Positions 15,035 through 63,395 are shown, counted from the stretch's first letter. The stretch is 64,000 nt of DNA from Egicoccus sp. AB-alg2 (GCF_041821065.1 NZ_JBGUAX010000011.1:1-64000); one strand, 5' to 3'. Numbers and translations: made by a program. The notes: generated by a model from the sequence alone, not told the origin.

Positions 15035-15040
15035 CTGCCC

Positions 15041-16357: not shown

Positions 16358-16380
16358 TGGCCTCACCGGAGGAGGACCGG

Positions 16381-42538: not shown

Positions 42539-43077
42539 AGGTCGCCGCGCTCCCGGGCCTCCTGCACCAGCCGGCCGACGTTGCGCACGTCGCCGGGCGA
42601 GCCCTCGAGCAGTTCCTCACGGGCGGCGAGGAAGGCGCGGCCGAGCGTCGCCCGTTCGTCGGCCGGGACGTTCTCCCGCGCGGCATTGAGAATGTCGCGC
42701 TCCTCCTCGTCGATGTGGTGGTTGAGGGCCTCGACGAGCTCCTCGAGCTTCTCCTCGAACTCCTCGTGGTCGTCGACGTCCTCGACCCGCAGCAGCTCGA
42801 GCAGCGCCTCGTGCCCCTCGGCATGCTCCTCGGAGCCGTGCTCGATCTCCTCGGCCTCCTCTGGCGCACGCTCGCGCAGCGCGGGGTACACCTCACGCTC
42901 CTCCGCCTCGGCGTGCGCGACCAGCAGGTCGGCCAGTTCCGATCGGGCGCTGGCGCGGTCCGCCTCGCGGTTGCGCAGCAGACGGAACAGTCGCTCGAAC
43001 TCGCGGTGGTCGGCCAGGATCAGGTCGACCACGTCCTCGGTGTCCGCCGTGCTCGCGCCGCCGTGGGTGTCGCTCAC
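42535..43077 (-). CDS. Hemerythrin HHE-domain protein
   Basis: A 180-aa protein with a hemerythrin-like four-helix bundle. Candidate di-iron ligands are in ILADHREFERLF (about residue 27), VAHAEAEEREVYP (about 55-67, the HxxxE pair), a His in AEGHEALLEL, and LNHHIDEEERDIL (about 123-135). Such domains bind O2, NO or act as redox sensors. A Glu/Asp-rich surface fits a halophile. The GTG at 43077 has GAGGAG upstream. It diverges from mrpA over 272 bp. Confidence 0.9.
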   Translation of the reverse strand: MSDTHGGASTADTEDVVDLILADHREFERLFRLLRNREADRASARSELADLLVAHAEAEEREVYPALRERAPEEAEEIEHGSEEHAEGHEALLELLRVEDVDDHEEFEEKLEELVEALNHHIDEEERDILNAARENVPADERATLGRAFLAAREELLEGSPGDVRNVGRLVQEARERGDL

Positions 43078-43349
43078 GGATGTGCTCCTCGTCGCGGGGG
43101 AAGCACGGGCCGCCGGTCGGGACCGTGCGTCGCGCATCCTCCCAGCGGGCGCGCGTCGCGCGGACCCCGCGTGGCGACCGGACGGACACCGACGCGGCGG
43201 CGACGGCCGCGCCGGATACCGTGCGCGTCGATCCTGATGGGTCACTGAACTTTCCGTGCGGCCGACCGACCGGTCCCGGAAGCGATCCGCACCCGCACCG
43301 GCGCCGTCGTGCCACGCTCGTGACGGCTTGGCAGGGGACTGAAGAACTC

Positions 43350-46274: not shown

Positions 46275-46720
46275 CCGCCGCCATCGTCGTCGGCCTGCTC
46301 GCCGCGGGCGGGACCTACCTCGTGATGCAGCGCGGCATCGTGCGCATCACGATCGGGTTCGCACTGCTCGGTCACGCCGCCACCACGATCCTCGTCACCT
46401 CCGGCGGGGTCGCCCGCCGGGGCGTGCCGTTCATCGGCGAGCCCGGCACGCCCGCCGACCCGCTCCCCCAGGCGTTCGCCCTGACGGCGATCGTGATCTC
46501 GTTCGGGATCACCGCGTTCCTGCTGACGCTCGCGTTCCGGGGCCGTGACGTCCTCGGCCACGACGACGTCGAGGCCGACGCCGACCCGCGCCTGTCCGAC
46601 GGATCCGACCAGCGTCTGTCCGACGGATCCGACCAGCGTCTGTCCGACGACGAGGACGTGGACCTGCCCGTCGACGAGTACGTGCTGCCCGGGCGCGCCG
46701 ACCAGGAGGAGCGCCCGTGA
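46271..46720 (+). CDS. mrpC: Na+/H+ antiporter subunit MrpC
   Basis: A 149-aa membrane protein homologous to NuoK. Three transmembrane helices (about residues 3-20, 25-45, 70-95) contain the NuoK-type pattern RIVRITIGFALLGHAATTIL and PLPQAFALTAIVISFGITAF. The C-terminal 50 residues form an acidic tail with a repeated SDGSDQRL motif from a 24-bp tandem repeat. It overlaps both neighbours by 4 nt (GTGA). It is a core part of the Mrp complex membrane arm. Confidence 0.93.
   Translation: MTAAIVVGLLAAGGTYLVMQRGIVRITIGFALLGHAATTILVTSGGVARRGVPFIGEPGTPADPLPQAFALTAIVISFGITAFLLTLAFRGRDVLGHDDVEADADPRLSDGSDQRLSDGSDQRLSDDEDVDLPVDEYVLPGRADQEERP
46592..46648 (+). repeat. 24-bp tandem repeat, 2.4 copies, in the mrpC tail
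   Basis: A 24-bp unit beginning CTGTCCGACGGATCCGACC starts at 46592 and 46616, and its first nine bases recur at 46640. It encodes LSDGSDQR repeats and adds acidic residues in frame. It probably arose by slippage. Confidence 0.8.
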
Positions 46721-48264
46721 GCACCCTCCTGCCGCTCCCGTTCGCGCTGCCGCTGCTCGCGGCCGCCCTCGGGATGCTGTTCCGCGGCCGTCGACGCGTC
46801 CAGCGCGCCATCACGACCGTGCTGATGGTCGCACTGGTCGGCCTGGCCGCCTCACTGGTCGTCGCCACCCGCGGCGGCGGGGCCGTGGCCGCCGACATCG
46901 GCAATTGGCCGATCAACCTCGCCATCCCGTTCGTCGCCGACGGGTTCGCGGCGCTCGTGCTGCTGACCGTCAGCGTCTCGGCGGTCCTGGCGCTGGTGTT
47001 CGCCGTCTCCCGGGGCGAGGACGCCCATCCGCTGTTCCACCCCATGGTCGGCGTCCTGCTCGCCGGTGTGCTCGGCTCGCTGCTGACCGCCGACCTGTTC
47101 AACTTGTTCGTCACCTTCGAGGTGATGCTGATCGGCTCGTACGTGCTGCTCACGCTGCGCGGCGACCGACGCCAGGTCCGGGCCGGGGTCATCTACGTGA
47201 CCGTGAGCCTGCTGGCCTCGACGACGTTCCTCGTCGGCATCGCGCTGGTGTACGGCACGGCCGGGACGGTGTCCTTCGCGAACCTGTACGGCGTGGTCCA
47301 GTCCACCCCGACGGCGGCCGTCGGCGCGTCGCTGGTCCTGGCCGCCATCGCCGTCAAGGCCAGCCTGGTTCCCATGCATGCCTGGCTGCCGCGGACCTAC
47401 GTCCAGGCCGGCCCCGGCGTGACCGCACTGTTCTCCGGGTTGCTCACCAAGGCCGGCGTGTACGTGCTGTTCCGCCTCTACAGCGTGCTGTTCGCCGGGG
47501 ACCCCGGCTATCGCGGCCTGTGGCTGACCGTGGCCGGCATCACGATGGTGGTGGGCGTGCTCGGCGCCGTCGGCCGCGGCGACATGCGCGGCATCCTCGC
47601 CTATCACATGGTCAGCCAGATGGGGTACCTGATCCTGCCGCTGGGGCTGTGGACCCTGGCGGGCGTCACCGCCGGGATCGTCTACCTCGTGCAGTACGTG
47701 CTGGTGAAGGGCGCGCTGTTCGTGGCCGTCGGAACGGTGGAGACCCTCACGGGGACCGGCCGGCTGAAGGCCCTCGGCGGCATGGTGCGGACACGCCCGT
47801 GGTTGGCGGTGGCCTTCCTCCTGCCCGCCCTGGCGCTCGCCGGTATCCCGCCGACCTCCGGGTTCGTCGGCAAGTACCTGCTCATCCGGGCTGCCTTCGT
47901 CGACGCGGCGTGGGTCGCCGGCGGCGTGGCCGTACTGGTGAGCCTCTTCACCCTGCTGTCGATGGTGAAGATCTGGAACGGCGCCTTCTGGGGTGTGCTC
48001 ACCGAGCGGGTCCGGCAGGAGCCCGGCGGGGTCGCGGTCGGTCTGCGGCCCGTGCCGGCCGGCGGCGCCGGTGACGACGACCCCGTCGTGCCGCGGGCCG
48101 CCTCCAACCGGCGCGTCACCGGCATGGTCGCACCCGCGCTGCTCGTCTCCGTCGCCGTGTTCGTGCTGGGCATCGGTGCCCAACCCCTGCTCGAACTCGT
48201 CGAGCCGGCCGCCCGCGGGTTGCTGGAGCCGACGGCCTACCTCGAGGCGGTGAGGTCCCTGTGA
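46717..48264 (+). CDS. mrpD: Na+/H+ antiporter subunit MrpD (first operon)
   Basis: A 515-aa membrane protein (about 14 helices), homologous to NuoN/NuoM proton channels. The TM5 region is LFNLFVTFEVMLIGSYVLLT, with the essential Glu; VKASLVPMHAWLPRTYVQAG holds the TM7 Lys and the helix break. ILAYHMVSQMGYLILPLGLW is the usual TM8-9 segment. It forms part of the ion-translocating arm together with MrpA. The GTG start overlaps the mrpC stop. Confidence 0.95.
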   Translation: MSTLLPLPFALPLLAAALGMLFRGRRRVQRAITTVLMVALVGLAASLVVATRGGGAVAADIGNWPINLAIPFVADGFAALVLLTVSVSAVLALVFAVSRGEDAHPLFHPMVGVLLAGVLGSLLTADLFNLFVTFEVMLIGSYVLLTLRGDRRQVRAGVIYVTVSLLASTTFLVGIALVYGTAGTVSFANLYGVVQSTPTAAVGASLVLAAIAVKASLVPMHAWLPRTYVQAGPGVTALFSGLLTKAGVYVLFRLYSVLFAGDPGYRGLWLTVAGITMVVGVLGAVGRGDMRGILAYHMVSQMGYLILPLGLWTLAGVTAGIVYLVQYVLVKGALFVAVGTVETLTGTGRLKALGGMVRTRPWLAVAFLLPALALAGIPPTSGFVGKYLLIRAAFVDAAWVAGGVAVLVSLFTLLSMVKIWNGAFWGVLTERVRQEPGGVAVGLRPVPAGGAGDDDPVVPRAASNRRVTGMVAPALLVSVAVFVLGIGAQPLLELVEPAARGLLEPTAYLEAVRSL

Positions 48265-48629
48265 GCGAACGGTCACGCGGGCTGCCGCGGCGGGTCCTCG
48301 GCCTGGTACGCCGGCTGCCCTTCATCGTCTGGGCGCTGCTGGTCTTCCTGTGGGCGCTGCTCGTCTCCAACGTCCGGGTGGCCTGGGAAGTGCTCACCCC
48401 CGGCTTCGGCATGACGCCGGCGATCGTGCGCGTGCCGACGTCCACCCGGACGGACTGGGAGACGACGCTGCTGGCCAACATGATCACGATGACGCCCGGG
48501 ACGCTGTCGATCGAGATCGACGAGGACACCCGGGACCTGTACGTCCACACCCTCTACTACGAGGGTCGCGAGGCTTTCCTGGCCGACATCGCGAGCCTCG
48601 AACGCACCCTGCTGAAGGCGACCCGATGA
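48261..48629 (+). CDS. mrpE: Na+/H+ antiporter subunit MrpE (first operon)
   Basis: A 122-aa protein with one or two N-terminal helices (FIVWALLVFLWALLVSNVRV) and a C-terminal globular domain. The LLANMITMTPGTLSIEIDED segment is the MnhE signature. It helps assemble the complex. Start and stop both overlap neighbours (GTGA, ATGA). Confidence 0.93.
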   Translation: MSERSRGLPRRVLGLVRRLPFIVWALLVFLWALLVSNVRVAWEVLTPGFGMTPAIVRVPTSTRTDWETTLLANMITMTPGTLSIEIDEDTRDLYVHTLYYEGREAFLADIASLERTLLKATR

Positions 48630-48883
48630 CCCTCGTCGACCTGGGACTGGCCGTGCTGGCGCTGTCCTTCGCCCTCGGGATCGTCCGGGCGGTGCGCGGC
48701 CCGAGTGTGGCCGACCGCGCCATCGCCGCGGACCTGTGCCTGTACGCCCTCGTCGGCGCCATCGCACTGCTGGCGCTGCGCACCACGTACGAGGAGTTCC
48801 TCGACGTGATCCTGATCGCGACGCTGCTGGGCTTCCTCGCGACGATCTCCCTGGGGGCCCTGGTCGGGAGGCGTGACCAGTGA
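48626..48883 (+). CDS. mrpF: Na+/H+ antiporter subunit MrpF (first operon)
   Basis: An 85-aa protein with three transmembrane helices (LVDLGLAVLALSFALGIVRA; CLYALVGAIALLALRT; VILIATLLGFLATISLGALV). VRGPSVADRAIAAD is the typical RGP-DR family element. It overlaps both neighbours. Confidence 0.92.
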   Translation: MTLVDLGLAVLALSFALGIVRAVRGPSVADRAIAADLCLYALVGAIALLALRTTYEEFLDVILIATLLGFLATISLGALVGRRDQ

Positions 48884-49230
48884 CCGACGTCATCGGGGCC
48901 GTCCTGATCGGGCTGGGCGTGTTCCTCGTCCTGCTCGCCGGCATCGGGCTGCTGCGCTTCCCCGACGTCTTCATCCGCTCGAGCGCCACCACCAAGGCGG
49001 CCGGGCTGGGCATCGCCCTCGTCCTGGCCGGCACGGCGTTCGCCATCGGCACGCCCGAGGCCGCCGTCAAGATGAGCATCGCCATCGTGCTGCAGTTCGT
49101 CGGCGCTCCCGTCTCCGGTCACGTGATCGCCCGGGCGGCCTACCGTGCCGGCGCGCCGCTGTGGGACCGCACGGTCACCGACGAGTTGCAGGGATTCGTC
49201 GAGCGACCGCACGAAACCGAGGTCCGCTGA
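48880..49230 (+). CDS. mrpG: Na+/H+ antiporter subunit MrpG (first operon)
   Basis: A 116-aa protein with three helices. GIGLLRFPDVFIRSSATTKA is the family motif (usually LRxPDxYxRxHAxxK). GAPVSGHVIARAAYRAGAPL is the C-terminal signature. It ends the first operon. Confidence 0.93.
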   Translation: MTDVIGAVLIGLGVFLVLLAGIGLLRFPDVFIRSSATTKAAGLGIALVLAGTAFAIGTPEAAVKMSIAIVLQFVGAPVSGHVIARAAYRAGAPLWDRTVTDELQGFVERPHETEVR

Positions 49231-49312
49231 AGTTCCGATGAAGGTTTGAGCCGGAAACGCCGAAACCGGCCGCTGGTCGGGTCGGCCGTTTCCCGGCATC
49301 TGCCACCTCCAC

Positions 49313-49318
49313 TAGGCT
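49313..49318 (+). promoter_or_regulatory. Candidate -10 hexamer (TAGGCT) for the second Mrp operon
   Basis: TAGGCT lies 133 nt before the first start codon (49452) in the only gap (220 bp) between the two operons. This suggests the second operon has its own promoter and a leader of about 125 nt. No clear -35. Confidence 0.35.
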
Positions 49319-49451
49319 CGAACATCCACGCGACACCCGGTGCCCACCCCGTCGCTCTCCCCAGCGGGACGTGGGCCGGTGCCACGGCATCCAGGCACCG
49401 TCGACCGGTGTCGTCCCCACCTCGCCGTCGTGTTCTTGCCCCCGGAGGCCA

Positions 49452-50942
49452 ATGAGCCCCCAGGCTTCGCTGTTGCCGCTCGCCGCTGTCGGCGTGCCGG
49501 TGCTGACCGCCGTGGCCATCGTCGTCACCCGGCGGAAGCCGACGCTGCGCGACGCGCTCCTGGTCGTCGGCGCCGTGGTCACCTTCGTGGTGGTCGGCGC
49601 GCTGGTGCCCGCGGTCCTGGCCGGCGAGGTGCCGACGACCCGCCTCGGCCAGCTGGTCCCCGGCGTCGAGCTCAGCCTGCGCGCCGACGGCATGGGCATG
49701 CTGTTCGCGCTGCTGGCGTCGTTCCTGTGGGTGCTCGCGGGCTCGTACGCCGTCGGGTACATGCGCGGTGACGCCGCGGCCAACCAGACCCGCTTCTACG
49801 CCTTCTACGCGCTGTGCCTGTCGACCGCCTTCGGCGTCGCGTTCGCCGGGGACCTGTTCACCTTCTTCGTCTTCTACGAACTGCTGACGATCGCGACCTA
49901 CCCGCTGGTGACCCACAAGGGTGACGCGAAGGCGATTGCGGCCGGGCGCCTCTACCTCGGTGTGCTCCTGTCGGGCGGCGTGCTGGTGCTGGCAGCCACG
50001 CTGCTCGTGTGGGCCAACGTCGGCGAGCTCGGCTTCGCGCCCGGCGGCATCGTCGGCGACACCATGGGCACCGGGCTGACCGTGCTGGTGTTCGCGCTGT
50101 TCGCCGCCGGGTTCGCCACCAAGAGCGGCGTCATGCCGGTCCACCGGTGGCTGCCGGCCGCCATGGTCGCGCCCACGCCCGTCAGCGCCCTGTTGCACGC
50201 CGTCGCCGTGGTCAAGGCCGGGGTGTTCGCGTTCGGGCGTGTCGTCGGCTTCGTGATCGGGCCCGGTGTCCTGCTCGACCTCGGCGTCCAGGGCTGGCTG
50301 TCGCTGGCGGCCGGGATCACGATCGCGGTCGCGTCGGTGGTCGCGCTCCGGCAGGACCACCTGAAGCGGCGGCTCGCGTTCTCCACGATCGCCCACCTGT
50401 CGTTGATCGTGCTCGGGTTCTCGCTGCTGTCCGCGACCGCCTACGAGGGCGGGCTGCTGCACATCGTCAACCACGGGCTGCTGAAGATCACGCTGTTCTT
50501 CTGTGCGGGCGCGATCCACATCGCCGCGCACAAGGACCATGTCAGCGAACTGGACGGCATCGGCCGGCGCATGCCCTTCACGATGGTCGCCTTCGCCGTG
50601 GCGTCCTACGGGCTGGCGGCCCTGCCACCGATGGGCGGGTTCGTCAGCAAGTGGTACCTCTCCCTCGGTGCGCTCGATGCGGACCAGCAGGTCTACGCCG
50701 CACTCATCGTGATCAGCGGCCTGTTCACGGCCGGCTACCTGTTCCCGGTCGTCTACCGCGCCTTCTTCAAGCCGCTCTCCGAGGAGGCGCGCGCCCACCC
50801 CCACGGCGAGGCATCCCCGCTGATGGTGGTGCCGTTGTGCGTCACCGCGTTGGTCGGGCTGCTGCTCGGACTGGGGGACCTCGGCGGCGTGTACTCGATC
50901 GCCTCCGACGTGGCCGCCACCGTGACGGGGGGTGCGCCGTGA
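49452..50942 (+). CDS. MrpD/NuoN-like proton-conducting antiporter subunit (second operon, first)
   Basis: A 496-aa polytopic membrane protein homologous to MrpD/NuoL-M-N. The TM5 segment DLFTFFVFYELLTIATYPLV keeps the Glu, and MPVHRWLPAAMVAPTPVSAL is the channel loop. An AHLSLIVLGFSLLSATAYEG segment follows, and IVNHGLLKITLFFCAGAIHI carries a charged Lys. It resembles haloarchaeal and Mbh-type stand-alone D subunits more than canonical MrpD. The ATG at 49452 has GGAGG. It is the first gene of the second operon and overlaps the next by GTGA. Confidence 0.9.
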   Translation: MSPQASLLPLAAVGVPVLTAVAIVVTRRKPTLRDALLVVGAVVTFVVVGALVPAVLAGEVPTTRLGQLVPGVELSLRADGMGMLFALLASFLWVLAGSYAVGYMRGDAAANQTRFYAFYALCLSTAFGVAFAGDLFTFFVFYELLTIATYPLVTHKGDAKAIAAGRLYLGVLLSGGVLVLAATLLVWANVGELGFAPGGIVGDTMGTGLTVLVFALFAAGFATKSGVMPVHRWLPAAMVAPTPVSALLHAVAVVKAGVFAFGRVVGFVIGPGVLLDLGVQGWLSLAAGITIAVASVVALRQDHLKRRLAFSTIAHLSLIVLGFSLLSATAYEGGLLHIVNHGLLKITLFFCAGAIHIAAHKDHVSELDGIGRRMPFTMVAFAVASYGLAALPPMGGFVSKWYLSLGALDADQQVYAALIVISGLFTAGYLFPVVYRAFFKPLSEEARAHPHGEASPLMVVPLCVTALVGLLLGLGDLGGVYSIASDVAATVTGGAP

Positions 50943-51208
50943 CCCGCCGCCGCATCTGGCTCGTCACCGCCGTGGCCTTCGTGGTCGTCGTCCTGCTCGA
51001 TCTCGTCGTGCAGTACGCCCGTTTCCCCGGCTACGGGGCGCTCCTCGGCTTCGCGGGCTGCTACCTGCTGGTCTACGTCGCCAAGTGGCTCGGCCAGTCG
51101 GTCCTGCAGCGGCGCGAGACCTACTACGCCGACGACCTGACGCCCGACGTGCAGGACGACGTGCGCCCGGACGTCTCCCCCGAGGTGGGAGGTGAGGTCC
51201 GTGGCTGA
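50939..51208 (+). CDS. Small membrane protein in the second Mrp operon
   Basis: An 89-aa protein with two transmembrane helices (LVTAVAFVVVVLLDLVVQYA and LLGFAGCYLLVYVAKWLG) and a 25-residue acidic tail (rich in Asp, Val and Pro). It does not match any named Mrp subunit. The GTG start overlaps the preceding stop and its end overlaps the following D-like gene, so it is part of the same translational unit. It may be an accessory subunit. Confidence 0.8.
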   Translation: MTRRRIWLVTAVAFVVVVLLDLVVQYARFPGYGALLGFAGCYLLVYVAKWLGQSVLQRRETYYADDLTPDVQDDVRPDVSPEVGGEVRG

Positions 51209-52937
51209 GCTGCTGCTGCATCCGATCGTGCCGATGCTGCTCGGCGCGGCGCTCGTGCGCGTCGCGCCGCGGGCGGTCGGCAACGTCGTCATGCTGCTCG
51301 CGCCGGCGCTGGCGCTCGCGGCGGTGTGGGTCCTGGAGCCCGGCACGTCCGTGACCGTGCCGTGGCTGCAGTGGGAACTCGAGGTCCTGCGCGTCGACGG
51401 CCTGTCGCGGCCCTTCGGGATCATCTTCGCCGTCGCCGCGATCTGCGCCGGGCTGTACGGGCTGCGGACCCAGCAGGCATCCGAGCGCACCTCGGCGCTG
51501 GTCTACGCCGGCGCGGCCATGGGCGTGGTGTTCGCCGGCGACCTCATCACCTTCTTCCTGTTCTGGGAGATCAAGGCGGTCGCCAGCACGCTGGTGATCA
51601 TGGCCCGGCGCAACGCCCGTTCGGGGCGGTCGGGCATGCGCTACCTGTTCGTGCACGTGCTCGGCGGCAAGCTGCTGCTCGCCGGCATCCTGTGGCACTG
51701 GACGGCGACCGGCTCGCTCGCCTTCGACCGGTTCGAGCCGTCGGCCGGCGCCGTACTCATCCTGCTGGCCTGCCTGCTCTCCGCCGCCGTCCCGCCGATG
51801 CACGCCTGGTTGCCCGACGCCTACCCGGTGGCCACCGTCGCTGGCACCGTCTTCCTCTCCGCCTACACCACCAAGGCCAGCGTGTACGCCCTCGCCCGCG
51901 GGTTCGCCGGCTGGGAGGTGCTGGTGTGGCTCGGCGTGGTCATGGCCGTCTACGGCGTGATCTACGCCATCCTGGAGAACGACATCCGGCGGCTGCTGGC
52001 CTACCACATCGTCAGCCAGGTGGGCTTCATGGTCACGGGTGTCGGCATCGGCACCGAGGTGGCCATCAACGGCACCACGGCCCACGCGTTCGCGCACATC
52101 CTCTACAAGGCGCTGCTGCTGATGGGCGCCGGCGCGGTGCTGTACGCCACCGGACGCAGCAAGGCCAGCGCGCTGGGGGGCATCGCCAACCGGATGCGGC
52201 TGGTCCTCGGCCTGTACCTCGTCGGCGCGCTCAGCATCTCGTCGCTGCCGTTCCTCAGCGGCTTCGTGTCCAAGGAACTGGTGGTGGAGTCGGCCTACGT
52301 CGACGAACGCGCGCTGGTCGTCCTGATCCTGCAGATCGTGTCGGTGGGTACCTGGCTGTCCACCGGGCTCAAGCTGCCCTACGCGGCCTGGTTCGGCACC
52401 GACGGCGCCGGCCCGCGCACCAACGACGAGGGCCACCCGATCCACGTGGCGCCGGTGCCGCGCACGATGCTGGCCGCCATGGGGATCGTCGCGGCGCTCA
52501 ACCTCGCGATCGGCCTGGCGCCCGGGCTGCTGTACGACCTGCTGCCCCACCCGGTCGACTACCAGCCCTACTCGGTGGGCAAGGTGCTGGAGAAGATCCA
52601 GATCCTGCTGTTCACCGCGTTCGCGTTCGGGCTGCTACTGAAGAAGCTGCAGGCCAAGGCGATGATCACGGTGGACACGGACTGGGTGTACCGGCGCCTG
52701 CCGCTGGTGGTCGGGGAGCTCGGCCGCCGCGGCCGCACCGCCGAGGCGCCGGTCGCGGCACCGGCACCCGCACGGCCGGCGCTGCTCACCCGGTTCCAGG
52801 CCGCGCGGACCGACGTGCTGGCACGCTTCGGACGAGACCGCGAGGGGCCGCCGCCGGTCGCCGCGACCTGGACGCTGGGCTCCGTGCTGCTGGCCGCCGG
52901 CATCGTGCTGTTCCTCGTCAGCGTGGTGCCGTCATGA
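51201..52937 (+). CDS. MrpD/NuoL-like proton-conducting antiporter subunit (second operon, second)
   Basis: A 578-aa membrane protein. DLITFFLFWEIKAVASTLVI carries the TM5 Glu; VPPMHAWLPDAYPVATVAGT and YILENDIRRLLAYHIVSQVG-like segments mark TM7-8; HAFAHILYKALLLMGAGAVL is a further channel region. A long C-terminal extension (about residues 470-578) includes helices and an Arg-rich loop before a last helix. The GTG at 51201 is chosen: it begins the first helix and has GGGAGGTGAGG upstream; 51192 is an alternative. It overlaps both neighbours. Confidence 0.88.
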   Translation: MAELLLHPIVPMLLGAALVRVAPRAVGNVVMLLAPALALAAVWVLEPGTSVTVPWLQWELEVLRVDGLSRPFGIIFAVAAICAGLYGLRTQQASERTSALVYAGAAMGVVFAGDLITFFLFWEIKAVASTLVIMARRNARSGRSGMRYLFVHVLGGKLLLAGILWHWTATGSLAFDRFEPSAGAVLILLACLLSAAVPPMHAWLPDAYPVATVAGTVFLSAYTTKASVYALARGFAGWEVLVWLGVVMAVYGVIYAILENDIRRLLAYHIVSQVGFMVTGVGIGTEVAINGTTAHAFAHILYKALLLMGAGAVLYATGRSKASALGGIANRMRLVLGLYLVGALSISSLPFLSGFVSKELVVESAYVDERALVVLILQIVSVGTWLSTGLKLPYAAWFGTDGAGPRTNDEGHPIHVAPVPRTMLAAMGIVAALNLAIGLAPGLLYDLLPHPVDYQPYSVGKVLEKIQILLFTAFAFGLLLKKLQAKAMITVDTDWVYRRLPLVVGELGRRGRTAEAPVAAPAPARPALLTRFQAARTDVLARFGRDREGPPPVAATWTLGSVLLAAGIVLFLVSVVPS

Positions 52938-53503
52938 GCCGGCTACGCGGCCCCGTCCTGTTCGCCCTGTTGCTGGGGTTCTGGCTGCTGCTGTCGTGGC
53001 GGCTCGACCCGCTCTTCCTGGTGATGGGTGTCGGCTCTGCCGCGCTGGTGACCTGGTTGAGCCGCCCACTTCTGGACGCGGTGCTCGGCGACCGGGGCCG
53101 GGCGGCCCGCCACGTGCGTCCGTGGTATCTGCTGCTCTACGTGGTCTGGCTCATCGGCCGCCTGCTGCCCGCCGGCCTGCACATCCTGCGCGTCGTGCTC
53201 GACCCGCGGGTGCCGCCGCGACCCGGGGTCGCACGGTTCCGCACCAACCTCGCCAGCCCTGCCGCCCGCACCATGCTGGCCACCTCGATCACGATGGTGC
53301 CCGGCACCATGACCCTCGACGTCGACGGCGACGAGTTCACCATCCACGCCTTCACCCCCACCGCGGTCGCCGACCTCGCCAACGCCGCGACGCAGCGCCG
53401 CATCGCGCGCGTCTTCGGCGACCCACCAGACGACCCGCCACGGATCGTCTGGGACGAGCGCCGGCCGTCGCCGGTCGATCCCGACGACCTGGGGAGGCGA
53501 TGA
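52934..53503 (+). CDS. mrpE: MrpE-like subunit (second operon)
   Basis: A 189-aa protein with three N-terminal helices (LFALLLGFWLLLSWRLDPLF; LFLVMGVGSAALVTWLSRPL; WYLLLYVVWLIGRLLPAGLH) and the MnhE segment ARTMLATSITMVPGTMTLDV. It is longer than its first-operon counterpart (122 aa) because of an extra N-terminal helix pair and a C-terminal tail. Start and stop overlap neighbours (ATGA). Confidence 0.9.
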   Translation: MSRLRGPVLFALLLGFWLLLSWRLDPLFLVMGVGSAALVTWLSRPLLDAVLGDRGRAARHVRPWYLLLYVVWLIGRLLPAGLHILRVVLDPRVPPRPGVARFRTNLASPAARTMLATSITMVPGTMTLDVDGDEFTIHAFTPTAVADLANAATQRRIARVFGDPPDDPPRIVWDERRPSPVDPDDLGRR

Positions 53504-53874
53504 TGGGCGACTGGGACCCGTTCCTCGTCGGCGTGCTGCTGGTGGTCGCCGTCCTGATCGCGCTGGGCCTCACACGCGTCTGGTCCGGACCGACGGTGTT
53601 CGACCGCCTGGTGGCGGTCGCGCTCGTGGCGGTCAACGGCGTCGTCGTGATGGTGGTGCTCGGGTTCGTGCTCGGCCGGCCCGGGTTCTTCCTCGACATC
53701 GCCCTGGGGTTCATGCTGCTGGCCTTCCTGCTGCCCATCGCCCTCGGCCGCTACTTCCAGGGCCGCGAGACGCCGCCGGACGATCCGCGCCGCGTCGACG
53801 GCGGCCCGATCGACGGCGCCCCCATCGACCGCGGCGCGACCGAAAGCGACCCGCGGGACGGGGGTGGACGATGA
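53500..53874 (+). CDS. mrpF: MrpF-like subunit (second operon)
   Basis: A 124-aa protein. Three helices (LVGVLLVVAVLIALGLTRVW; LVAVALVAVNGVVVMVVLGF; FFLDIALGFMLLAFLLPIAL) with WSGPTVFDRLVA as the family GPT-DR element. The last 35 residues form a hydrophilic tail with repeated GGPIDGAPID motifs. Two adjacent ATGs (53500, 53503); GGGGAGG is 5 nt before the second. Confidence 0.9.
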   Translation: MMGDWDPFLVGVLLVVAVLIALGLTRVWSGPTVFDRLVAVALVAVNGVVVMVVLGFVLGRPGFFLDIALGFMLLAFLLPIALGRYFQGRETPPDDPRRVDGGPIDGAPIDRGATESDPRDGGGR

Positions 53875-54248
53875 GCTGGATGCTGTTCGTCTCCACGCCG
53901 CTGATCGTGTTCGGCCTGGTGCTGCTCGTGGCCTCCACGGTGGGGCTGCTCAAGCTCCCCGACCTGTACACACGTGCCCACGCCGTGGCGAAGTCGGAGA
54001 CACTCGGACTGCTGCTGCTGTTCGTCGGCCTGCTGTTCCGTCCGGAGCTGGAGATCGACGCGAGCTTCCGGCTCGCGTTCGTGCTCATCGCCTCGCTGAT
54101 CCTGAACCCCACCGCCGTGCACGCGCTGGTCCGGGCGGCTCACCGTTCGGGCGCCCTGCCGGTGCAGACGGTCGACCAGGCCTCGGCCGAGGCCGAGATC
54201 CAGCAGGCGCTGGCGGACACCGCCGTCGAAGAGGAGGAACGCGCGTGA
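53871..54248 (+). CDS. mrpG: MrpG-like subunit (second operon)
   Basis: A 125-aa protein with three helices. GLLKLPDLYTRAHAVAKSET is the MrpG motif with the conserved LPDLYTRAHA. NPTAVHALVRAAHRSGALPV matches the C-terminal signature. It overlaps both neighbours (ATGA, GTGA). Confidence 0.92.
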   Translation: MSWMLFVSTPLIVFGLVLLVASTVGLLKLPDLYTRAHAVAKSETLGLLLLFVGLLFRPELEIDASFRLAFVLIASLILNPTAVHALVRAAHRSGALPVQTVDQASAEAEIQQALADTAVEEEERA

Positions 54249-54856
54249 TCGTCCCCCTCGACATCCTCTTGTTCGTCATCCTGATCGCCACCGCGATCCT
54301 GGCCCTGCACGTCGAGGACCTGCTCGCGGCCGTGGCACTGCTGTCGGCCTACAGCCTCTTCGCCGCGCTGCTGTTCGCGGGCCTGTCCGCCCTGGACGTC
54401 GCCCTGGTCGAGGCGGCGCTGGGAGCGGGCCTGACGGGCGTGCTGTTCATCGCCGCGATCCTCGCCACGACGCGGCGGTCGCAACCACGCACGGACCGCC
54501 GACGGTTGTGGGTCGTGCTCCCGCTGATCGCCGGTTTCATCGGCCTCATGCTCTACGCCAGCACGGGGCTTCCCGACCGTGGCGACCCCGAGGCGCCCGC
54601 CCACCAGGGCGTCGCCACGGCCTACATCGAGGGGTCGCTCGAACAGACGCAGACGCCCAACGTCGTCACCGCGATCCTCGCCGACTACCGCTCGCAGGAC
54701 ACCCTCGGCGAGACGCTGGTGATCGTCACCGCCGCCCTGGCCGCCGCGCTGGTGCTCGTCCGTCATCGCGGCGACGACGAGGAGCCGGCCAGCGGGGACA
54801 CGCCACGACCGTCGCCGACGGCCGACGACCGACACGGCGAAGGTGACGGGCGATGA
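54245..54856 (+). CDS. DUF4040 / MrpB-N-like subunit (second operon)
   Basis: A 203-aa protein corresponding to the DUF4040 part that is fused inside MrpA in the first operon. Helices include ILLFVILIATAILALHVEDL (HVEDL motif), LSAYSLFAALLFAGLSALDV and VEAALGAGLTGVLFIAAIL. The later NVVTAILADYRSQDTLGETL segment is the MbhE/MrpA-B linker signature (VNxILxDfRaxDTLGE). It overlaps both neighbours. Confidence 0.88.
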   Translation: MIVPLDILLFVILIATAILALHVEDLLAAVALLSAYSLFAALLFAGLSALDVALVEAALGAGLTGVLFIAAILATTRRSQPRTDRRRLWVVLPLIAGFIGLMLYASTGLPDRGDPEAPAHQGVATAYIEGSLEQTQTPNVVTAILADYRSQDTLGETLVIVTAALAAALVLVRHRGDDEEPASGDTPRPSPTADDRHGEGDGR

Positions 54857-55290
54857 TCGGCGCCTACCCGTCCGAGGTCGTCCGCGTCATCTGCGCGGTC
54901 GCGAGTCCGTTCATCGCCCTGTTCGGGCTGTACGTGATCGCCCATGGCCACTACGGCCCCGGCGGCGGCTTCGCCGGCGGGGTGTTCGTGGCGGTCGGTG
55001 CGATCCTGCCCCGGTTGACGCTCGACGAGTCCCTGGCGTACCGGCTCATCCCCCGCTCGGCCGGGCCGCTGGCCGCCGGGGTCGGCATGCTGCTGTTCCT
55101 CGTCGTCGCCACACTGCCGCTGCTGGTCGGTGGGGCGTTCCTCGACTACGGCGCCATCCAGGTTGCCGGCATGGAGGCCGCGCGCGTGCGCTACCTCGGC
55201 ATCCTGGTCGTGGAGATCGCCGTCGGCCTGGCGGTGTTCGGCGCCATGGTCCTGATCTTCGACGCCATCACGGGGCGGAGCAGCCGATGA
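54853..55290 (+). CDS. mrpB: MnhB-like subunit (second operon)
   Basis: A 145-aa protein with four helices and the MnhB signature FIALFGLYVIAHGHYGPGGG followed by FAGGVFVAVG. It is separate here, whereas the first operon carries it as the C-terminal part of the A subunit. It overlaps both neighbours (ATGA). Confidence 0.92.
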   Translation: MIGAYPSEVVRVICAVASPFIALFGLYVIAHGHYGPGGGFAGGVFVAVGAILPRLTLDESLAYRLIPRSAGPLAAGVGMLLFLVVATLPLLVGGAFLDYGAIQVAGMEAARVRYLGILVVEIAVGLAVFGAMVLIFDAITGRSSR

Positions 55291-55775
55291 TCGACCTGTT
55301 CCTCGCCCGCTACATCTACGTCCTGGTGCTGGTGCTGCTCGCCATCGGCCTGTACGGGATGCTGGCCAAGGGCGACCTCGTCAAGAAGGTCGTCGGCATG
55401 ACGATCTTCACCACCGCGATCTACCTGTTCTTCATCGAGGGCAGCGTCCAGGACGGCGCCACCGCGCCGATCATCGACCCCGCGCTGGGTTCGGACCCGC
55501 AGGCGTACGTCGACCCGCTCCCCCACCTGCTGATCCTGACCGCCATCGTCGTCGGGGTCGGCGTCGTCGGCGTGGCACTGTCGCTGCTCGTGCGGCTGTA
55601 CCGGGCGCACGGCACCCTCGACGAGGCCGTCATCGCCGACCGCCTCTCCGGCCGGGCCGAGCCGATCGGCACCCCCACCGAGGCCGACCCGGTCGACGCC
55701 ACAGGCCGGGGACGCCGGCGCGCGGGCCCCGCGGACGGCCAGCGGCCCGGCCGCGACGACCAGGCGGGTCGCTGA
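55287..55775 (+). CDS. mrpC: MrpC-like subunit (second operon)
   Basis: A 162-aa NuoK-like protein. Helices YIYVLVLVLLAIGLYGMLAK, VVGMTIFTTAIYLFFIEGSV and HLLILTAIVVGVGVVGVALS, with the DPLPHLLILTAIVV pattern of the family. It lacks the repeat tail of the first MrpC but has its own hydrophilic C-terminus. The final D-like gene starts 1 nt after its stop. Confidence 0.9.
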   Translation: MIDLFLARYIYVLVLVLLAIGLYGMLAKGDLVKKVVGMTIFTTAIYLFFIEGSVQDGATAPIIDPALGSDPQAYVDPLPHLLILTAIVVGVGVVGVALSLLVRLYRAHGTLDEAVIADRLSGRAEPIGTPTEADPVDATGRGRRRAGPADGQRPGRDDQAGR

Positions 55776-55776
55776 C

Positions 55777-57252
55777 GTGGAAAACCTGCCGATCCTCGTC
55801 CTGCTGCCCCTGCTGTTCGGGGCCATCCTGAGCATGATCGCCGGGCTGTGGCGGCCGCTGGCGGCCCAGGTCATCGCGGTGGTGTCGACCGCGGCGTCGC
55901 TGGTCCTGGCCGTCGTCGGACTGCTGCGCGTGGTACCAGACGGCCGGCTCACCCACGACCTCGGCGGCTGGGCGCCGAGCATCGGCATCGAGTACGTCCT
56001 CGACCCGCTGTCCGCGTACATGACCGTGATCATCGCGCTCATCGGACTGCTGGTCTGCGTCTACCCGGTGGGGGCCGCGTTCGACCTGAAACCGCGCGGC
56101 GGCGCCCCGCTGTACCCGCTGGCGCTGCTGCTGCTGACCGGACTGACCGGCGTCGTGCTCAGCGGCGACCTCTTCCACCTGTTCGTCATGCTCGAGATCT
56201 ACGCGATCGCGACCTACGGACTGGTGTCGCTGGGCGGCGACCGCGGCGTACTCGCGTCGCTGCGCTACCTGCTGCTGGGCACGCTGGGCAGCGGCCTGTA
56301 CCTGCTGGGGGTCGGGTTCCTGTACTTCTCGACCGGCACGCTCAACATGGCGGACATGGCGCAGGCCCTGCCGCCGCTGGCCGACTCCCCCACCACCCTC
56401 GGGGCCATGGCACTGATCGTCATCGGCCTGGCGCTAAAGATGGCGCTGTTCCCGCTGCACGTGTGGCTGCCGGACGCGCACAGCTACTCCCCGCCCGGCG
56501 TCGCGGCCCTGCTGGCCGCCGTCCAGGTCAAGGCCGGCGCCTACGGGCTCGTGCGCATCCTCTTCGACGTGTTCGGCCCCGCCTACGGGGACGGCGCGGG
56601 CCTGCCGGTCAGCACGGCACTGACCTGGTTCGGCCTGGCCGGCATCCTCGTCGGCTCGGTCCTCGCCATCCAGCAGACCGACCTGAAGCGGCTGCTGGCT
56701 TACTCCACGGTCGCGCAGCTCGGCTACATCGGGGTCGGGATCGGCCTCGCGAACCCGCTCGCGCTGGTCGGCGCGCTACTGCACGTGCTGAACCACGCCG
56801 TGATGAAGAGCGGCCTGTTCCTCGTGGCCGGCGGCATCATCCAGCAGACCGGCCTGAAGACGATCGCGAAGTTCGCCGGCCTCGGCAAGCGCATGCCGCT
56901 GACCATGGCCGGGTTCGCACTGGCCGGGCTGTCGATGGTCGGGATCCCGCCCACCGCCGGGTTCTTCTCCAAGTTCTACCTCGTCTGGGGCGGCATCGAG
57001 GCCGGCAACTGGGCCGTCTTCGTGGTGGTCGTGTCCTCCAGCCTGCTGACGGCCGTCTACTTCCTGCGTCTGTTCGAGCAGATCTTCGTCCGCGAGCCGG
57101 AACTCGAGGTGGTCGCCGCCGCCCGGGAACCCGGTCCCCGCGTGGTCGGCACCGTCGCCGTGTTGGGTGCCGCCGTCGTGCTCATCGGGGTGTTCAACGC
57201 CGTCATCGTCGAGAACGTCCTCATGCCCGTCGCCGACCGCATGCTCGGGTGA
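55777..57252 (+). CDS. mrpD: MrpD subunit (second operon, third D-type)
   Basis: A 491-aa membrane protein close to canonical MrpD. GDLFHLFVMLEIYAIATYGL holds the TM5 Glu; KMALFPLHVWLPDAHSYSPP is the channel helix break with its Lys; LLAYSTVAQLGYIGVGIGLA and VLNHAVMKSGLFLVAGGIIQ are later channel segments. GTG start at 55777. It ends the second operon; a 14-bp hairpin follows. Confidence 0.93.
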   Translation: MENLPILVLLPLLFGAILSMIAGLWRPLAAQVIAVVSTAASLVLAVVGLLRVVPDGRLTHDLGGWAPSIGIEYVLDPLSAYMTVIIALIGLLVCVYPVGAAFDLKPRGGAPLYPLALLLLTGLTGVVLSGDLFHLFVMLEIYAIATYGLVSLGGDRGVLASLRYLLLGTLGSGLYLLGVGFLYFSTGTLNMADMAQALPPLADSPTTLGAMALIVIGLALKMALFPLHVWLPDAHSYSPPGVAALLAAVQVKAGAYGLVRILFDVFGPAYGDGAGLPVSTALTWFGLAGILVGSVLAIQQTDLKRLLAYSTVAQLGYIGVGIGLANPLALVGALLHVLNHAVMKSGLFLVAGGIIQQTGLKTIAKFAGLGKRMPLTMAGFALAGLSMVGIPPTAGFFSKFYLVWGGIEAGNWAVFVVVVSSSLLTAVYFLRLFEQIFVREPELEVVAAAREPGPRVVGTVAVLGAAVVLIGVFNAVIVENVLMPVADRMLG

Positions 57253-57315
57253 CCTTCCCGGGGTGCCGCCACCGGCGCGTCCTGGGCGGCACCCGTGACG
57301 TCCGCCACGAACGGC

Positions 57316-57347
57316 GTCGCCCCCGCCGACGGGTCGGCGGGGGCGAC
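57316..57347. terminator. 14-bp perfect hairpin between the Mrp operon and the LVIVD gene
   Basis: GTCGCCCCCGCCGA / TCGGCGGGGGCGAC with a CGGG loop lies 64 nt after the last Mrp gene and 21 nt from the convergent gene's stop. It is probably a bidirectional terminator. Confidence 0.8.
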
Positions 57348-57367
57348 GGTCCTCGGGTGCGACGGCG

Positions 57368-59500
57368 TCAGCTCTCCGTGGGCGCCGGAAGCGCGCACGA
57401 CCAGCCGTAGACCTCGTCGGGCTGCAGCGACGCGGTCACCTGCTGGGCGGAGGTCAGCTGGGCCCCCGACAGCCGTGGTGCCAGCACTTCGGCGCGCGTC
57501 TGCATCGCCGCCTCGGCGTCCTCGTCCAGCGTCAGCACGTGGATGCCCAGCACCGAGTCACCCGCGTAGATGACGTCGTCGTGCCACATCGGCATGAACG
57601 CGTTGCCGCCCTCGGGACGGAAGTACGCCACCTGGATCGGGTCGGTCGGGTCGCTGACGTCGAGGAACCGGAAGCCCTGGGTGTACCAGGCACCGGCCGC
57701 GATCCCGTCGCGCAACTGGAAGTAGTGCGCGGAGCAGGTGATCGGCGCGACGTCCAACGCCGAGCCCTCCTTGTCCGCGACGCTCCACACGCCGACCTGC
57801 TCGAGCGCGAAGCCCGGCTCGGTCTCCGGGTCCGCGTCCTCGTCGTACCAGCCCTGACCGTCCTTCGCGCCCTCGATCGAGGCGATGTAGAACTTGCCCG
57901 CCTCGGAACACGGCGCGGAGAAGTTCTCGTCGGTGACGTAGAGCAGGTCGCCGGTCGCCCAGTCGCCGCCGGCACCGTCGGCCAGGCCGGGACGCCGCGG
58001 ACGCTCGGAATCGGTCAGCAGCCGGTCTCCGGCCCCGTCGATCGGACGCTCGGAGTTGTGGATCGCACCGAACATGCGCGACGGGTCGTCGGGGTCGTTG
58101 TACTCGCCGACCTCACCGCCGGCGAAGGGCACCGGGTCCCAGGCGGTCGCCTCGCGCGGCAGGCCGTCGTTGGTCGGGTCCGGGTGGATCCCGTCGGTCC
58201 AGTAGCCGCGCACACCCCCGCGACCGGACACCCACGCGACGCCGGCCTGGTCGACCTGGACGTCGTGTGCGTAGTCGGTGGCGCCGCGGTAGCGGCCCGT
58301 GTCCACGGGCTCCTCGAACGTGGTGATGTTCGTCAGGTCGCGCACGTCGGTGACGAAGATCGGCCGGCCGATCCACTCGTCCGGCTGGTAGGCCGCCGTG
58401 GCCGGACCACCGCTCCACAGGTAGTCGCAGTCGTTCACGCAGGTCGCCGTGTGCCCGGCGGGCACCTCGTGGAAGAGCACGACCTCGGGGGCGGTCACGT
58501 CGGACAGGTCGATCACGTAGAAACCGGCCACCCCGGTGGGTTGCGGGTTCTGGAACGCCCGTGGGTCACGCGACAGGAACGCGACCTGACGGTCCTTGTC
58601 GATGTTGAGCGACTCCGCCGACCAGAACGTCCCTTCCGCGTCGTCCGCGTCGAGGTCGTAGTCGTCGTCGTCGAGGCGCAACTCGTCCAGTTCGACGGCA
58701 CCGACCTCCTGCGGGTCCAGCGGGTCCGTCAGGTCGTAGACGCGCAGCCCCATGGCGGTACCGAACGCCACCATGTACTCGGTCCCGCCCTGCTCCATCA
58801 CGTTGATCGACGACACGCCCCGGACGTCGATGGTGGTGTGATGGGTCACGCCCTGCGAGGTCGCCTGGTCGAGCCCTTCGACGTGGCGGACCGTCCGCCA
58901 CACGAACGACGCGGCCTGGTCACGGCGCAGGTCGCGACGCGGCCGGAAGGTGCCGTCGTCGAAGCCCAGCGCGATGCCGAGGTCGGCCAGCGCGTTGATC
59001 TCGTCGGCGTGCACGCTGCCGGCGAGGTCGGTGAACCGGTCCTCGCCGTCGACCGCGTCCGGGCTGAACCACCGGTGCAGCACGGCGGCGACCTGGTCGC
59101 GGGTGATGTGCGCGTGGGGACGGAACGTGCCGTCCCGGTAGCCCTGCACGAGGCCGGCCTCGTAGGCGGCGGCGATGTTGTCGGTGTGGTCGAACTCCGG
59201 GACGTCGTCGAACGGTCGGGCGTCCGACGGGGGCAGCCCCGCGGCGCGGACGACGACGCTGGCGAGCTGGGCCCGTGTCAGCGTGCCACCGACGTCGAAG
59301 CGCCCGTCCGTACGGCCCTGCATGATCCCGCGCTCGGCGAGCTCGTAGATGGCCTCACCGTGTGGTCGTGTATCGGGGTCCACGTCGCTGAACGGCGGCT
59401 GTGCCGCGGCAGTGGCGACCGTGGACGCGACGAGCGTCCCGGCCGCCAGCACGGCGATCCCACCGTTCCGGCGCGTGAACCGTCGTTTCGTGACGGTCAC
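57368..59500 (-). CDS. Secreted SLH-repeat protein with LVIVD-like beta-propeller
   Basis: A 710-aa exported protein. A signal peptide covers about residues 1-33 (GGIAVLAAGTLVASTVATAA). Three SLH repeats span about 36-210 (FSDVDPDTRPHGEAIYELAE; FDDVPEFDHTDNIAAAYEAG; FTDLAGSVHADEINALADLG). The rest (about 225-700) has repeats such as MGLRVYDLTDPLDPQEVGAV, GFYVIDLSDVTAPEVVLFHE and GFRFLDVSDPTDPIQVAYFR, typical of LVIVD-type propellers found on prokaryotic surfaces. The ligand is unknown. Asp/Glu-rich stretches (LRLDDDDYDLDADDAEG) fit a salt-adapted surface protein. The GTG at 59500 has GAGGGAG. Confidence 0.9.
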   Translation of the reverse strand: MTVTKRRFTRRNGGIAVLAAGTLVASTVATAAAQPPFSDVDPDTRPHGEAIYELAERGIMQGRTDGRFDVGGTLTRAQLASVVVRAAGLPPSDARPFDDVPEFDHTDNIAAAYEAGLVQGYRDGTFRPHAHITRDQVAAVLHRWFSPDAVDGEDRFTDLAGSVHADEINALADLGIALGFDDGTFRPRRDLRRDQAASFVWRTVRHVEGLDQATSQGVTHHTTIDVRGVSSINVMEQGGTEYMVAFGTAMGLRVYDLTDPLDPQEVGAVELDELRLDDDDYDLDADDAEGTFWSAESLNIDKDRQVAFLSRDPRAFQNPQPTGVAGFYVIDLSDVTAPEVVLFHEVPAGHTATCVNDCDYLWSGGPATAAYQPDEWIGRPIFVTDVRDLTNITTFEEPVDTGRYRGATDYAHDVQVDQAGVAWVSGRGGVRGYWTDGIHPDPTNDGLPREATAWDPVPFAGGEVGEYNDPDDPSRMFGAIHNSERPIDGAGDRLLTDSERPRRPGLADGAGGDWATGDLLYVTDENFSAPCSEAGKFYIASIEGAKDGQGWYDEDADPETEPGFALEQVGVWSVADKEGSALDVAPITCSAHYFQLRDGIAAGAWYTQGFRFLDVSDPTDPIQVAYFRPEGGNAFMPMWHDDVIYAGDSVLGIHVLTLDEDAEAAMQTRAEVLAPRLSGAQLTSAQQVTASLQPDEVYGWSCALPAPTES

Positions 59501-59607: not shown

Positions 59608-61763
59608 TCAGGCGGGCGCCGCATCGACGACGACCAGGACCGTGTCCGCGTCGACGTACTCACCGGGGGCGACGTGAACGGCGGCCACCTCACCGGCGAC
59701 GGCAGCCGTGATCCGGTGCTCCATCTTCATCGCCTCGATGACGGCGAGGAGGTCGCCGCGGGCGACCCGGTCGCCGGGAGCGACCGCGACCCGGGTGACC
59801 GCGCCGGGCATGGGCGCCGTCGTGGCACCCGCCACCTCGGCGGCCGCCGCAACGGGGAAGCGCGGGAGCACGGTGACGCCCACCCAGCCACGGGCCGTGT
59901 CGACCAGTGCGACGCGCACGGCCTGCTCCCCCGCGCCGGCCGGCGTCAACCATCGCACGGCCAGCCGTCGGCGGTGCCCCTCGACCTCGAGGGCGAGGAA
60001 GTCGGGCCCGACCTCGATCACCTCGACGTGCTGCTCGGACGCGGGTGCGGCGTCGTCCTGCAGCACGCCCGGGCTCACGTCGTCGAAGACCCCGATTCGC
60101 CAGGCGCCTCCGTCGCGGTCGCGTGGCTGGATGCGCACCGTCCGGGGCGCGGTCGCTCCCGGAGCCGTCACCCGGAGCTGCTGCCCGAACGCCCGGGTGT
60201 TCGAGAACCCGGCGGGGACGCCCCGGGGCAGCGCGCCCGAGTCCGCCGTGAGCAGGGCGTGCAGGCCGGCGGCGGCCACGGCGAGCTCGACGGCCGCCGG
60301 ATCCGGTGCCGGCAGGGGCCGCGTCGCGGGGTCGAAGCGCTCGGCGAGGAAGGCGGTGGTCGTGTCGCCTTGGAGGAACGCGGTGTCGCGCAGGACGGCG
60401 ACCAGCAGGTCGCGGTTGGTGGTGGCGTGCAGCAGCGTCCGCTCGAGCGCGGCGGCGAGCCGGCCGGCGGCCTCGCCGCGCGTCGGCGCCCAGCCGATGG
60501 CCTTTGCCAGCATCGGGTCGTAGTCCGGACCGACGACGTCGCCGCCGCGGACGCCGACGTCCCAGCGGATGCCGTCCCCCGCGGCCGGCTCGAACACGAG
60601 CAGCGGGCCTGGCGCCGGCCGGTGGCCGTGCGCGGGATCCTCGGCGTACAGCCGCGCCTCGATGGCGTGGCCAGCCTGCCGGACGTCCGCCTGCGCGAAC
60701 GGCAGCGGCAGGCCCGCCGCGACCAGGAGCTGGAGGCGCACGAGGTCCAAGGTGCCGTCACCGTCGTCGCCGGCGATGCGGACCGTCGCCTCCGTCACGG
60801 GGTGCTCGACCTGCAGCCGCGTGTTGACCTCGAGGAAGGCGAACGCCTCCCGGGGATCGACCTCCTCACCGCCACGCCGCCGCGCCAGCACGGCGTCGTC
60901 CGCGACGAATTCGACCGTGCCGGCGTTGACGTAGCCGATCGCACGGGCGGCGCTGACCGCGGCCGAGGTCAGGGCCTCGCGCACCTCGGTGTCCACGGCC
61001 GGGGACGGGGTCTCCTCGACGACCTTCTGGTGCCGGCGCTGGATGGAGCACTCGCGCTCGAACAGGTGCACCACGGCGCCGTGGGCGTCGGCGAGGACCT
61101 GCACCTCGAGGTGGCGGGGGCGCTGGACGAACCGCTCGAGGAAGACCCGGTCGTCGCCGAACGCCGACGCCGCTTCGCGCCGCGCACCCGAGACGGCCTC
61201 GTTCAGCTCCGCCGGGTCGGCGACCAGGCGCATGCCCTTGCCCCCACCGCCCGCCGCCGCCTTCACCAGCAGCGGATAGCCGACCTCGTGCGCCAGTTCG
61301 GCCACCTCTGCGTCGTCGAGGCCCGACGTCAGCTCGCGGCCCGGCAGGACCGGAACGTCCGCAGCCGCCAGGCGTCGCTTGGCCTCCAGCTTGTCGCCCA
61401 TCGCCGCGATGACGTCCGGCGGCGGCCCGATCCAGGTGAGGCCGGCCGCGGCCACCGCCGTTGCGAACGCGGCGTTCTCCGAGAGGAAGCCGTAGCCGGG
61501 ATGGACCGCGTCGGCGCGGCAGCGCAGCGCCGCCTCGACGATCCGGTCGATGCGCAGGTAGCTGTCGACCGCCCGGGCACCGCCGATGCGGACCGCCTCG
61601 TCGCAGACCTCGACGTGGAGGGCGTCCGCGTCGGCGTCCGAGAACACGGCCACGGTGGCGATGCCGAGCTGCCGGCAGGTCCGGGCGACCCGGACGGCGA
61701 TCTCGCCGCGGTTGGCGATCAGGACGCGGCGCGGCAGCCGCGGAGCGGAGGTCGGCACGGCGC

Positions 61764-61767
<4 letters not shown>
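59608..61767 (-). CDS. Acyl-CoA carboxylase alpha subunit (biotin carboxylase + BCCP)
   Basis: A 719-aa biotin-dependent carboxylase subunit. The biotin carboxylase part (about residues 10-460) begins RVLIANRGEIAVRVARTCRQ and has the ATP-grasp glycine loop KAAAGGGGKGMRLV and ERECSIQRRHQKVVEETPS with the catalytic EHPVTE later. A middle linker/BT-like part follows, then the biotinyl domain with EAMKMEH (biotinyl-Lys near residue 681). Size and layout match methylcrotonyl- or acetyl/propionyl-CoA carboxylase alpha chains; the length and partner favour 3-methylcrotonyl-CoA carboxylase, but specificity is not provable. The GTG at 61767 overlaps the beta-subunit stop (GTGA), so the two are made together. 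Confidence 0.92.

Positions 61768-63395
<1,628 letters not shown>

Follow-up and report, generated by a model that had tools for sequence, protein, structure and literature searches.

Why does an actinobacterial genome carry two Mrp-type operons in a row, and is the second simply one more Na+/H+ antiporter of the same kind? The question arises from a 64,000-nt stretch of DNA (hereafter the window) taken from the 4.84 Mb genome, in 29 contigs, of Egicoccus sp. AB-alg2, where two consecutive Mrp operons lie on the + strand. The first (operon 1, 43080-49230) is a group-2 Mrp operon in which, as the original prediction described, a fused A-B gene (43080-46274, its real start probably further in) is followed by C (46271-46720), D (46717-48264), E (48261-48629), F (48626-48883) and G (48880-49230), with five 4-nt overlaps. 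A gap of 221 bp follows (49231-49451); a consensus scan of 42400-57600 recognised no sigma-70-like promoter or intrinsic terminator between the operons, a result that is uninformative in so GC-rich a genome. The second operon (operon 2, 49452-57252), also on the + strand, has ten genes in the order Da-small-Db-E-F-G-DUF4040-B-C-Dc.

Operon 2 opens with Da (49452-50942), a Proton_antipo_M protein equivalent to MrpD1 of green complex I, which has the TM5 Glu and the TM7, TM8 and TM12 Lys of antiporter-like subunits, plus a TM8 His as in MrpA and NuoL. A small protein of 89 aa (sm, 50939-51208) separates it from Db (51192-52937), a NuoL-shaped Proton_antipo_M protein equivalent to MrpD2 of green complex I, which scores 626.5 bits against NF009310 (PRK12668; curated cut-off 564). 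Then come E (MrpE, Pfam MNHE, 52934-53503), F (MrpF by Pfam and NCBIfam, 53500-53874), G (MrpG, MnhG by both, 53871-54248), DUF4040 (54245-54856, above the NF009159 cut-off), which is the C-terminal part of MrpA as a stand-alone protein (MbhD+MbhE), B (MnhB by both, 54853-55290), the NuoK-like C (MrpC, MnhC, above the NF005621 cut-off, 55287-55775) and Dc (55777-57252), a Proton_antipo_M protein equivalent to MrpD with its key residues retained. Pfam and NCBIfam name nine of the ten genes, the small one being the exception, and recognised no redox subunit among the ten. All frames are intact and of the families that were first assigned to this unfused operon, and the 4-nt overlaps expected at nearly all junctions occur at seven of nine; sm and Db overlap by 17 nt, and C and Dc are separated by 1 nt.

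With homologues of the MrpA C-terminal part (DUF4040), B, C, D, E, F and G together, operon 2 has the general Mrp/CPA3 gene set, and with every subunit, an irregular order and no group-2 A-B fusion it falls within group 3 Mrp, whose definition is loose. Group 3, and the presence of groups 2 and 3 in one actinobacterium, are already known from a review, where Microbacterium sp. TS-1 has mrpFGBCDDAE beside two group-2 clusters and cyanobacteria have mrpCD1D2EFGAB (PMC5703873). These operons share with operon 2 all subunits, the irregular order and an additional D; the passages on group 3 do not mention a small gene. Canonical Mrp complexes (Anoxybacillus 6z16, Bacillus 7qru, Dietzia 7d3u) have the same subunit families and fold. 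Unlike operon 2, they have two antiporter-like subunits, hold MrpA and its C-terminal part in a single chain, carry the TM7 Lys in both large subunits and keep MrpF D35 and MrpC H37.

Operon 2 is not a chance arrangement, because all 20 related loci keep its gene order up to the limits of their contigs (overlapping frames may trade places in the gene listings of these loci), and because dN/dS of its genes against a same-genus genome is 0.09-0.21 (operon 1: 0.07-0.27); judged from these comparisons, all ten genes are under purifying selection. NF009310, the marker for Db, exceeds its cut-off in 23 of 61 relatives. Had the arrangement been standard in Actinobacteria, the original prediction would have been refuted; with 26 of 396 genomes of the phylum carrying the marker, 16 of which belong to the window's own class, it is not standard. 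In Halobacteriota, 121 of 295 genomes have the marker. In a scan of named genomes, with their gene orders, the Da-small-Db cassette occurs in three settings. The order of operon 2 is that of Nitriliruptoraceae and Acidimicrobiia; the order E-F-G-MbhD-MbhE-B-C-Dc-Da-small-Db is found in Chloroflexota, Bacteroidota, Gemmatimonadota, ANME archaea and others; and NuoH-I-J-K-Da-small-Db-M-N is complete in a Rhodobacterales genome, with Da-small-Db lying beside two NuoM/N-like subunits in rhizobia and in some Acidobacteria and Verrucomicrobia. As the gene set of operon 2 recurs rotated in Chloroflexi, Bacteroidota, ANME archaea and haloarchaea, its parts travel as a unit. Several of the Nitriliruptoraceae MAG relatives come from "CSSed" samples, which we take to be soda-lake sediments. 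Adaptation to high salt or high pH is a plausible candidate role in some hosts. The class is not a halophile signature, since it is also present in groundwater Chloroflexi, ANME archaea and Acidobacteria.

Could operon 2 have arisen by local duplication of operon 1, with later divergence and splitting? The two are adjacent and on the same strand, as a duplication would leave them. In a tree of 93 rows (quick method, LG+G4, SH-aLRT only; one long-branch warning, for another gene), however, Da, Db and Dc each lie on one side of a fully supported branch, separate from A and D of operon 1 and from the NuoL, NuoM and NuoN of this genome, and form clades with sequences of other phyla. In each of the three subtrees the nearest neighbours of the window's class are Acidimicrobiia or another actinobacterial genome, and Chloroflexota come next. 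The clade nearest to Da is MrpA/NuoL, from which Dc stands apart. In pairwise comparison, Da, Db and Dc are 29-35% identical to A and D of operon 1. Moreover, 9 of 20 related loci have operon 1 upstream in the same orientation, 8 of these at no more than about 300 bp from the Da frame, and at least 9 others with more than 2 kb of upstream sequence do not have it there, so that the adjacency is missing in about half of the loci. The simple local duplication that the original prediction had named as its own possible undoing is refuted by the tree, and we give it a negligible probability.

The same prediction had likened operon 2 to haloarchaeal and Mbh-like split Mrp modules, which proved right in gene content and inexact in arrangement. 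On plasmid pHTUR04 of Haloterrigena turkmenica (HTUR_RS24330-RS24290), E, F, G, DUF4040, B, C, Dc, Da and Db are all present, with Asn at the Db TM7 position, Asn in place of MrpF D35 and an MrpC that lacks both His, as in the operon 2 class; in addition, F, C and DUF4040 of operon 2 score higher against archaeal MBS/MBH than against any other PDB chains. The plasmid order, E-F-G-DUF4040-B-C-Dc-Da-Db, is rotated relative to operon 2 and has no small gene between Da and Db, and its MrpE bears a long N-terminal extension that operon 2 does not have. This order without the small gene is general among haloarchaeal-type operons, a label inferred for loci from named plasmid records, so that operon 2 shares their gene set and not their layout. 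A recent acquisition from haloarchaea is not supported, as the haloarchaeal-type sequences are remote in all three subtrees of the quick tree.

The clearest departure from canonical Mrp is found in Db. Key residues were taken from a single alignment of all gathered antiporter-like subunits and counted on distinct sequences. The TM5 Glu is present in all three D-type subunits of operon 2, as was first noticed, and is retained in the Db and non-Db sets alike. Da and Dc have the canonical four residues (TM5 Glu and TM7, TM8 and TM12 Lys), whereas Db keeps the TM5 Glu, TM8 Lys and TM12 Lys and has lost the TM7 Lys. None of the 114 distinct Db sequences, bacterial and archaeal, has this Lys (Asn in 90, Ser in 22, Gly in 2), and all 266 non-Db antiporter-like subunits have it, one gap aside; these counts take in related species and not independent events. 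Most simply, the loss in Db is one ancestral change retained since. In one archaeon, a fused Da-Db protein has Lys in its Da half and Asn in its Db half at this position, and an apparent Db with a TM7 Lys turned out to be the Da portion of a frame in which Da and Db are fused. The Mrp structure paper describes the TM7 Lys as absolutely conserved and as part of the coupling point between adjacent subunits (PMC7419157). In one study, NuoL K229A made no difference to growth when complementing an mrpA mutant, and so the loss may matter less than supposed.

AlphaFold2 models Db confidently (pLDDT 87.3). The model can be aligned with NuoL from residue 4 to residue 524, a stretch that takes in TM15 and the first part of the amphipathic helix, but with MrpD only until about residue 455; on this modelled likeness, Db resembles an end subunit and looks like the end of the row. 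A longer Db amphipathic helix spanning three subunits was considered and set aside, because the region is no longer than in green complex I (the motif used missed some loci).

Between Da and Db, the small membrane protein of the original prediction is indeed present and conserved across related loci. Its AlphaFold2 model (mean pLDDT 73.5) has two helices, 2-24 and 32-56, followed by an unstructured tail; Gly37, Lys49 in helix 2 and Tyr63 are invariant, and the tail is of a conserved (R)EDYY type. Profile searches of Pfam, NCBIfam and PDB gave no match to a known family. We found this two-helix family, located between Da and Db, in bacteria and in methane-cycle archaea, and it is absent from the haloarchaea examined. 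Lys49 might be thought to substitute for the lost TM7 Lys of Db, but haloarchaeal Db lacks that Lys in operons with no small gene, so that there is no simple swap.

Residues of the cation path have changed as well. In the operon 2 MrpF the equivalent of Asp35 is Ala, and in MrpC the equivalents of His37 and His40 are Thr and Tyr, so that the canonical path of MrpF D35 and MrpC H37/H40 is missing; operon 1 retains MrpF Asp35 and MrpC His37. Across the class, D35 is replaced by Ala, Ser, Gly or Asn almost throughout, and H37/H40 are mostly Thr and Tyr, Phe or Ile. Since the TM7, D35 and H37/H40 changes are class-wide or nearly so, they do not represent drift within one genome. The conclusion first drawn, that the operon is functional because the TM5 Glu is kept, overlooked both the Db loss and these altered residues. 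The replaced residues are called essential for cation transport in the Mrp structure paper, in which MrpC H37/H40 bind cations and D35L in MrpF inactivated Anoxybacillus Mrp (PMC7419157); Na+ antiport in the usual mode is therefore not assured.

Even so, operon 2 might be a classical Na+(K+)/H+ antiporter, identical in working to operon 1, in which all three D subunits pump and neighbours compensate for the changes, for example through an MbhD-type Glu or acidic and polar residues elsewhere. Its full Mrp gene set would fit such a working, as would several retained residues: the MbhD-type Glu (DVALVEAALGAG) and DTLGE in DUF4040, the equivalents of H42 and P86 in MrpG, and P114/H131-like residues read by eye in MrpE. 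Neither of the two MrpC His is present in the sequence of MBS subunit G, and the tolerance of NuoL K229A in a complementation assay points the same way. Against all this stand a TM7 Lys gone from every Db and a cation path replaced almost class-wide, and we regard an unchanged classical antiporter as rather unlikely, though the most serious of the alternatives.

Another reading is that operon 2 encodes the membrane arm of a redox complex in the style of Mbh/Mbs or green complex I, whose catalytic subunits would come from genes outside the operon. In the green complex I of rhizobia, the place of NuoL is taken by two MrpD-like subunits (PMC9040806, citing Degli Esposti & Martinez-Romero 2016). 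We found there an orthologous Da-small-Db cassette with Asn at the Db TM7 position, and an annotated Sinorhizobium plasmid confirmed the cassette inside a complex I operon, where the equivalent of sm is annotated as "hypothetical protein". The cassette of green complex I stands on NuoH-I-J-K-M-N and redox subunits, whereas that of operon 2 stands on E-F-G-DUF4040-B-C-Dc with neither nuo nor redox genes: the MrpD1-MrpD2 pair is present and its nuo operon is not. Pyrococcus MBH/MBS (6cfw, 6u8y) likewise have separate MbhD/MbhE-type subunits, in keeping with the high scores of F, C and DUF4040 against these chains; unlike operon 2, they have a redox module and retain MrpF D35. No NuoH, hydrogenase-like or iron-sulphur gene was recognised in operon 2 or in the haloarchaeal operon, and E, F and G are Mrp features absent from complex I, which makes a redox arm improbable.

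In DAB systems, antiporter-like subunits act as a proton path. Operon 2 might by analogy serve uptake of bicarbonate/CO2 or of another anion, its antiporter-like subunits playing that role (compare PMC13144422), and a group-3 Mrp lies beside bicA in an alkalitolerant Nitrospira (PMC7784846). No DabA-like or bicarbonate gene was recognised in or beside operon 2, however, and its Mrp cation module is complete, so that we consider such uptake very improbable.

We consider it moderately probable that the products of operon 2 form a single membrane complex and that this is a secondary cation/proton antiporter of the Mrp type (group 3), built with three antiporter-like subunits where two are usual. 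From the observed gene set, order, conservation, residue changes and relatives, we infer how this complex may be assembled and stacked, and which way which ion may move. E, F, G, B and C, with the separate MbhD/E (DUF4040), would form the cation module; Dc would sit on it at the place of MrpD, with the MrpA/NuoL-like Da next, and Db would cap the far end with its NuoL-like C-terminal helices. The small protein may bridge Da and Db or hold them together, a contact suggested by the fusion of Da and Db in one archaeon and by the replacement of NuoL by the same cassette in complex I. Inward proton flow through Dc and Da would drive cation export. Lacking the TM7 Lys, Db would have no working TM5/TM7 pair and probably does not act as a third full proton pump; it would more likely be the end of the chain, a proton antenna and electrostatic partner for Da. 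Compared with classical Mrp the cation site has been rewired, so that operon 2 may move another ion than operon 1, or work at another stoichiometry. Our search of the open-access literature returned no transport measurements for any member of the class. The amphipathic region of Db, no longer than that of green complex I though it may need to span more than one neighbour, is an observation that counts against this build.

In the part of the open-access literature covered, we found no prior report that mentions the TM7 Lys loss, treats the MrpF and MrpC changes as common to a class or counts the small protein among the subunits. Apart from group 3 itself, the MrpD pair of green complex I was already known (PMC9040806); new here are the loss of the TM7 Lys in Db, the MrpF and MrpC changes as a feature of a class, and a conserved two-helix family of small proteins. 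We tentatively propose, as a possibility that we hold less firmly than the single antiporter complex itself, a distinct Mrp-like functional class that extends over bacteria and archaea. Its end module, Da-small-Db without the "essential" TM7 Lys, would be swappable, mounted either on an Mrp cation module with a rewired site or, as a substitute for NuoL, on complex I. The small protein, conserved and named by none of the family models used, is a candidate subunit. The mechanism of proton movement in complex I and Mrp is still debated; most models centre on the TM5 Glu/TM7 Lys pair, which has been described as absolutely conserved (PMC7419157). A Db family that has lost the TM7 Lys in all sequences examined and kept the rest, in Mrp-type as well as complex-I-type operons, constitutes a natural experiment on this pair. 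If the proposal is true, the class would not be a plain Na+/H+ antiporter, and an antiporter-like subunit could serve without the TM5 Glu/TM7 Lys pair that underlies current mechanisms.

The genome of Egicoccus sp. AB-alg2 also contains a third Mrp-like operon, of the split kind, with the order F-G-MbhD-MbhE/MnhB-C-D (locus L133, 7770-12470, corresponding to about 207.8-212.5 kb of contig C1, minus strand), and it carries only one D subunit. Two separate sets of NuoL/M/N genes were found about 15 kb apart on contig C14 of the same genome (loci L131 and L132), and therefore it seems to encode two complex I operons. In the window, the start of operon 1, the group-2 Mrp operon, is overlapped by a hemerythrin-domain frame on the minus strand (42538-43395). 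Beyond operon 2, the ten-gene split operon, lie an SLH-domain protein (57371-59500, minus strand) and then acyl-CoA carboxylase genes encoding the biotin carboxylase and the carboxyltransferase (59611-63395, minus strand).

We found the ten-gene order of operon 2 again in two loci (L136 and L112) from actinobacteria outside the class of the window, and in L112 the ten-gene operon is adjoined by operon 1 on the opposite strand. In archaea, many Halobacteriota genomes have 2-4 copies of Db, the NuoL-shaped subunit without the TM7 Lys, and an ANME-1 (Methanophagales) locus (L128, 8717-13578) contains a small gene together with a tandem pair of Db genes. Another archaeal genome (L160) encodes a single-frame fusion of the antiporter-like subunit Da with Db, of about 1,095 aa, which is present twice within the same region on opposite strands (2-2893 and 14277-17567).

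Three Actinobacteriota loci (L137, L139 and L140) encode NuoM/N-like subunits, two Da-like subunits and one Db, all consecutively. Complex I with additional pump-like subunits has been described in Manganitrophaceae, and the arrangement in these loci may represent such a complex.
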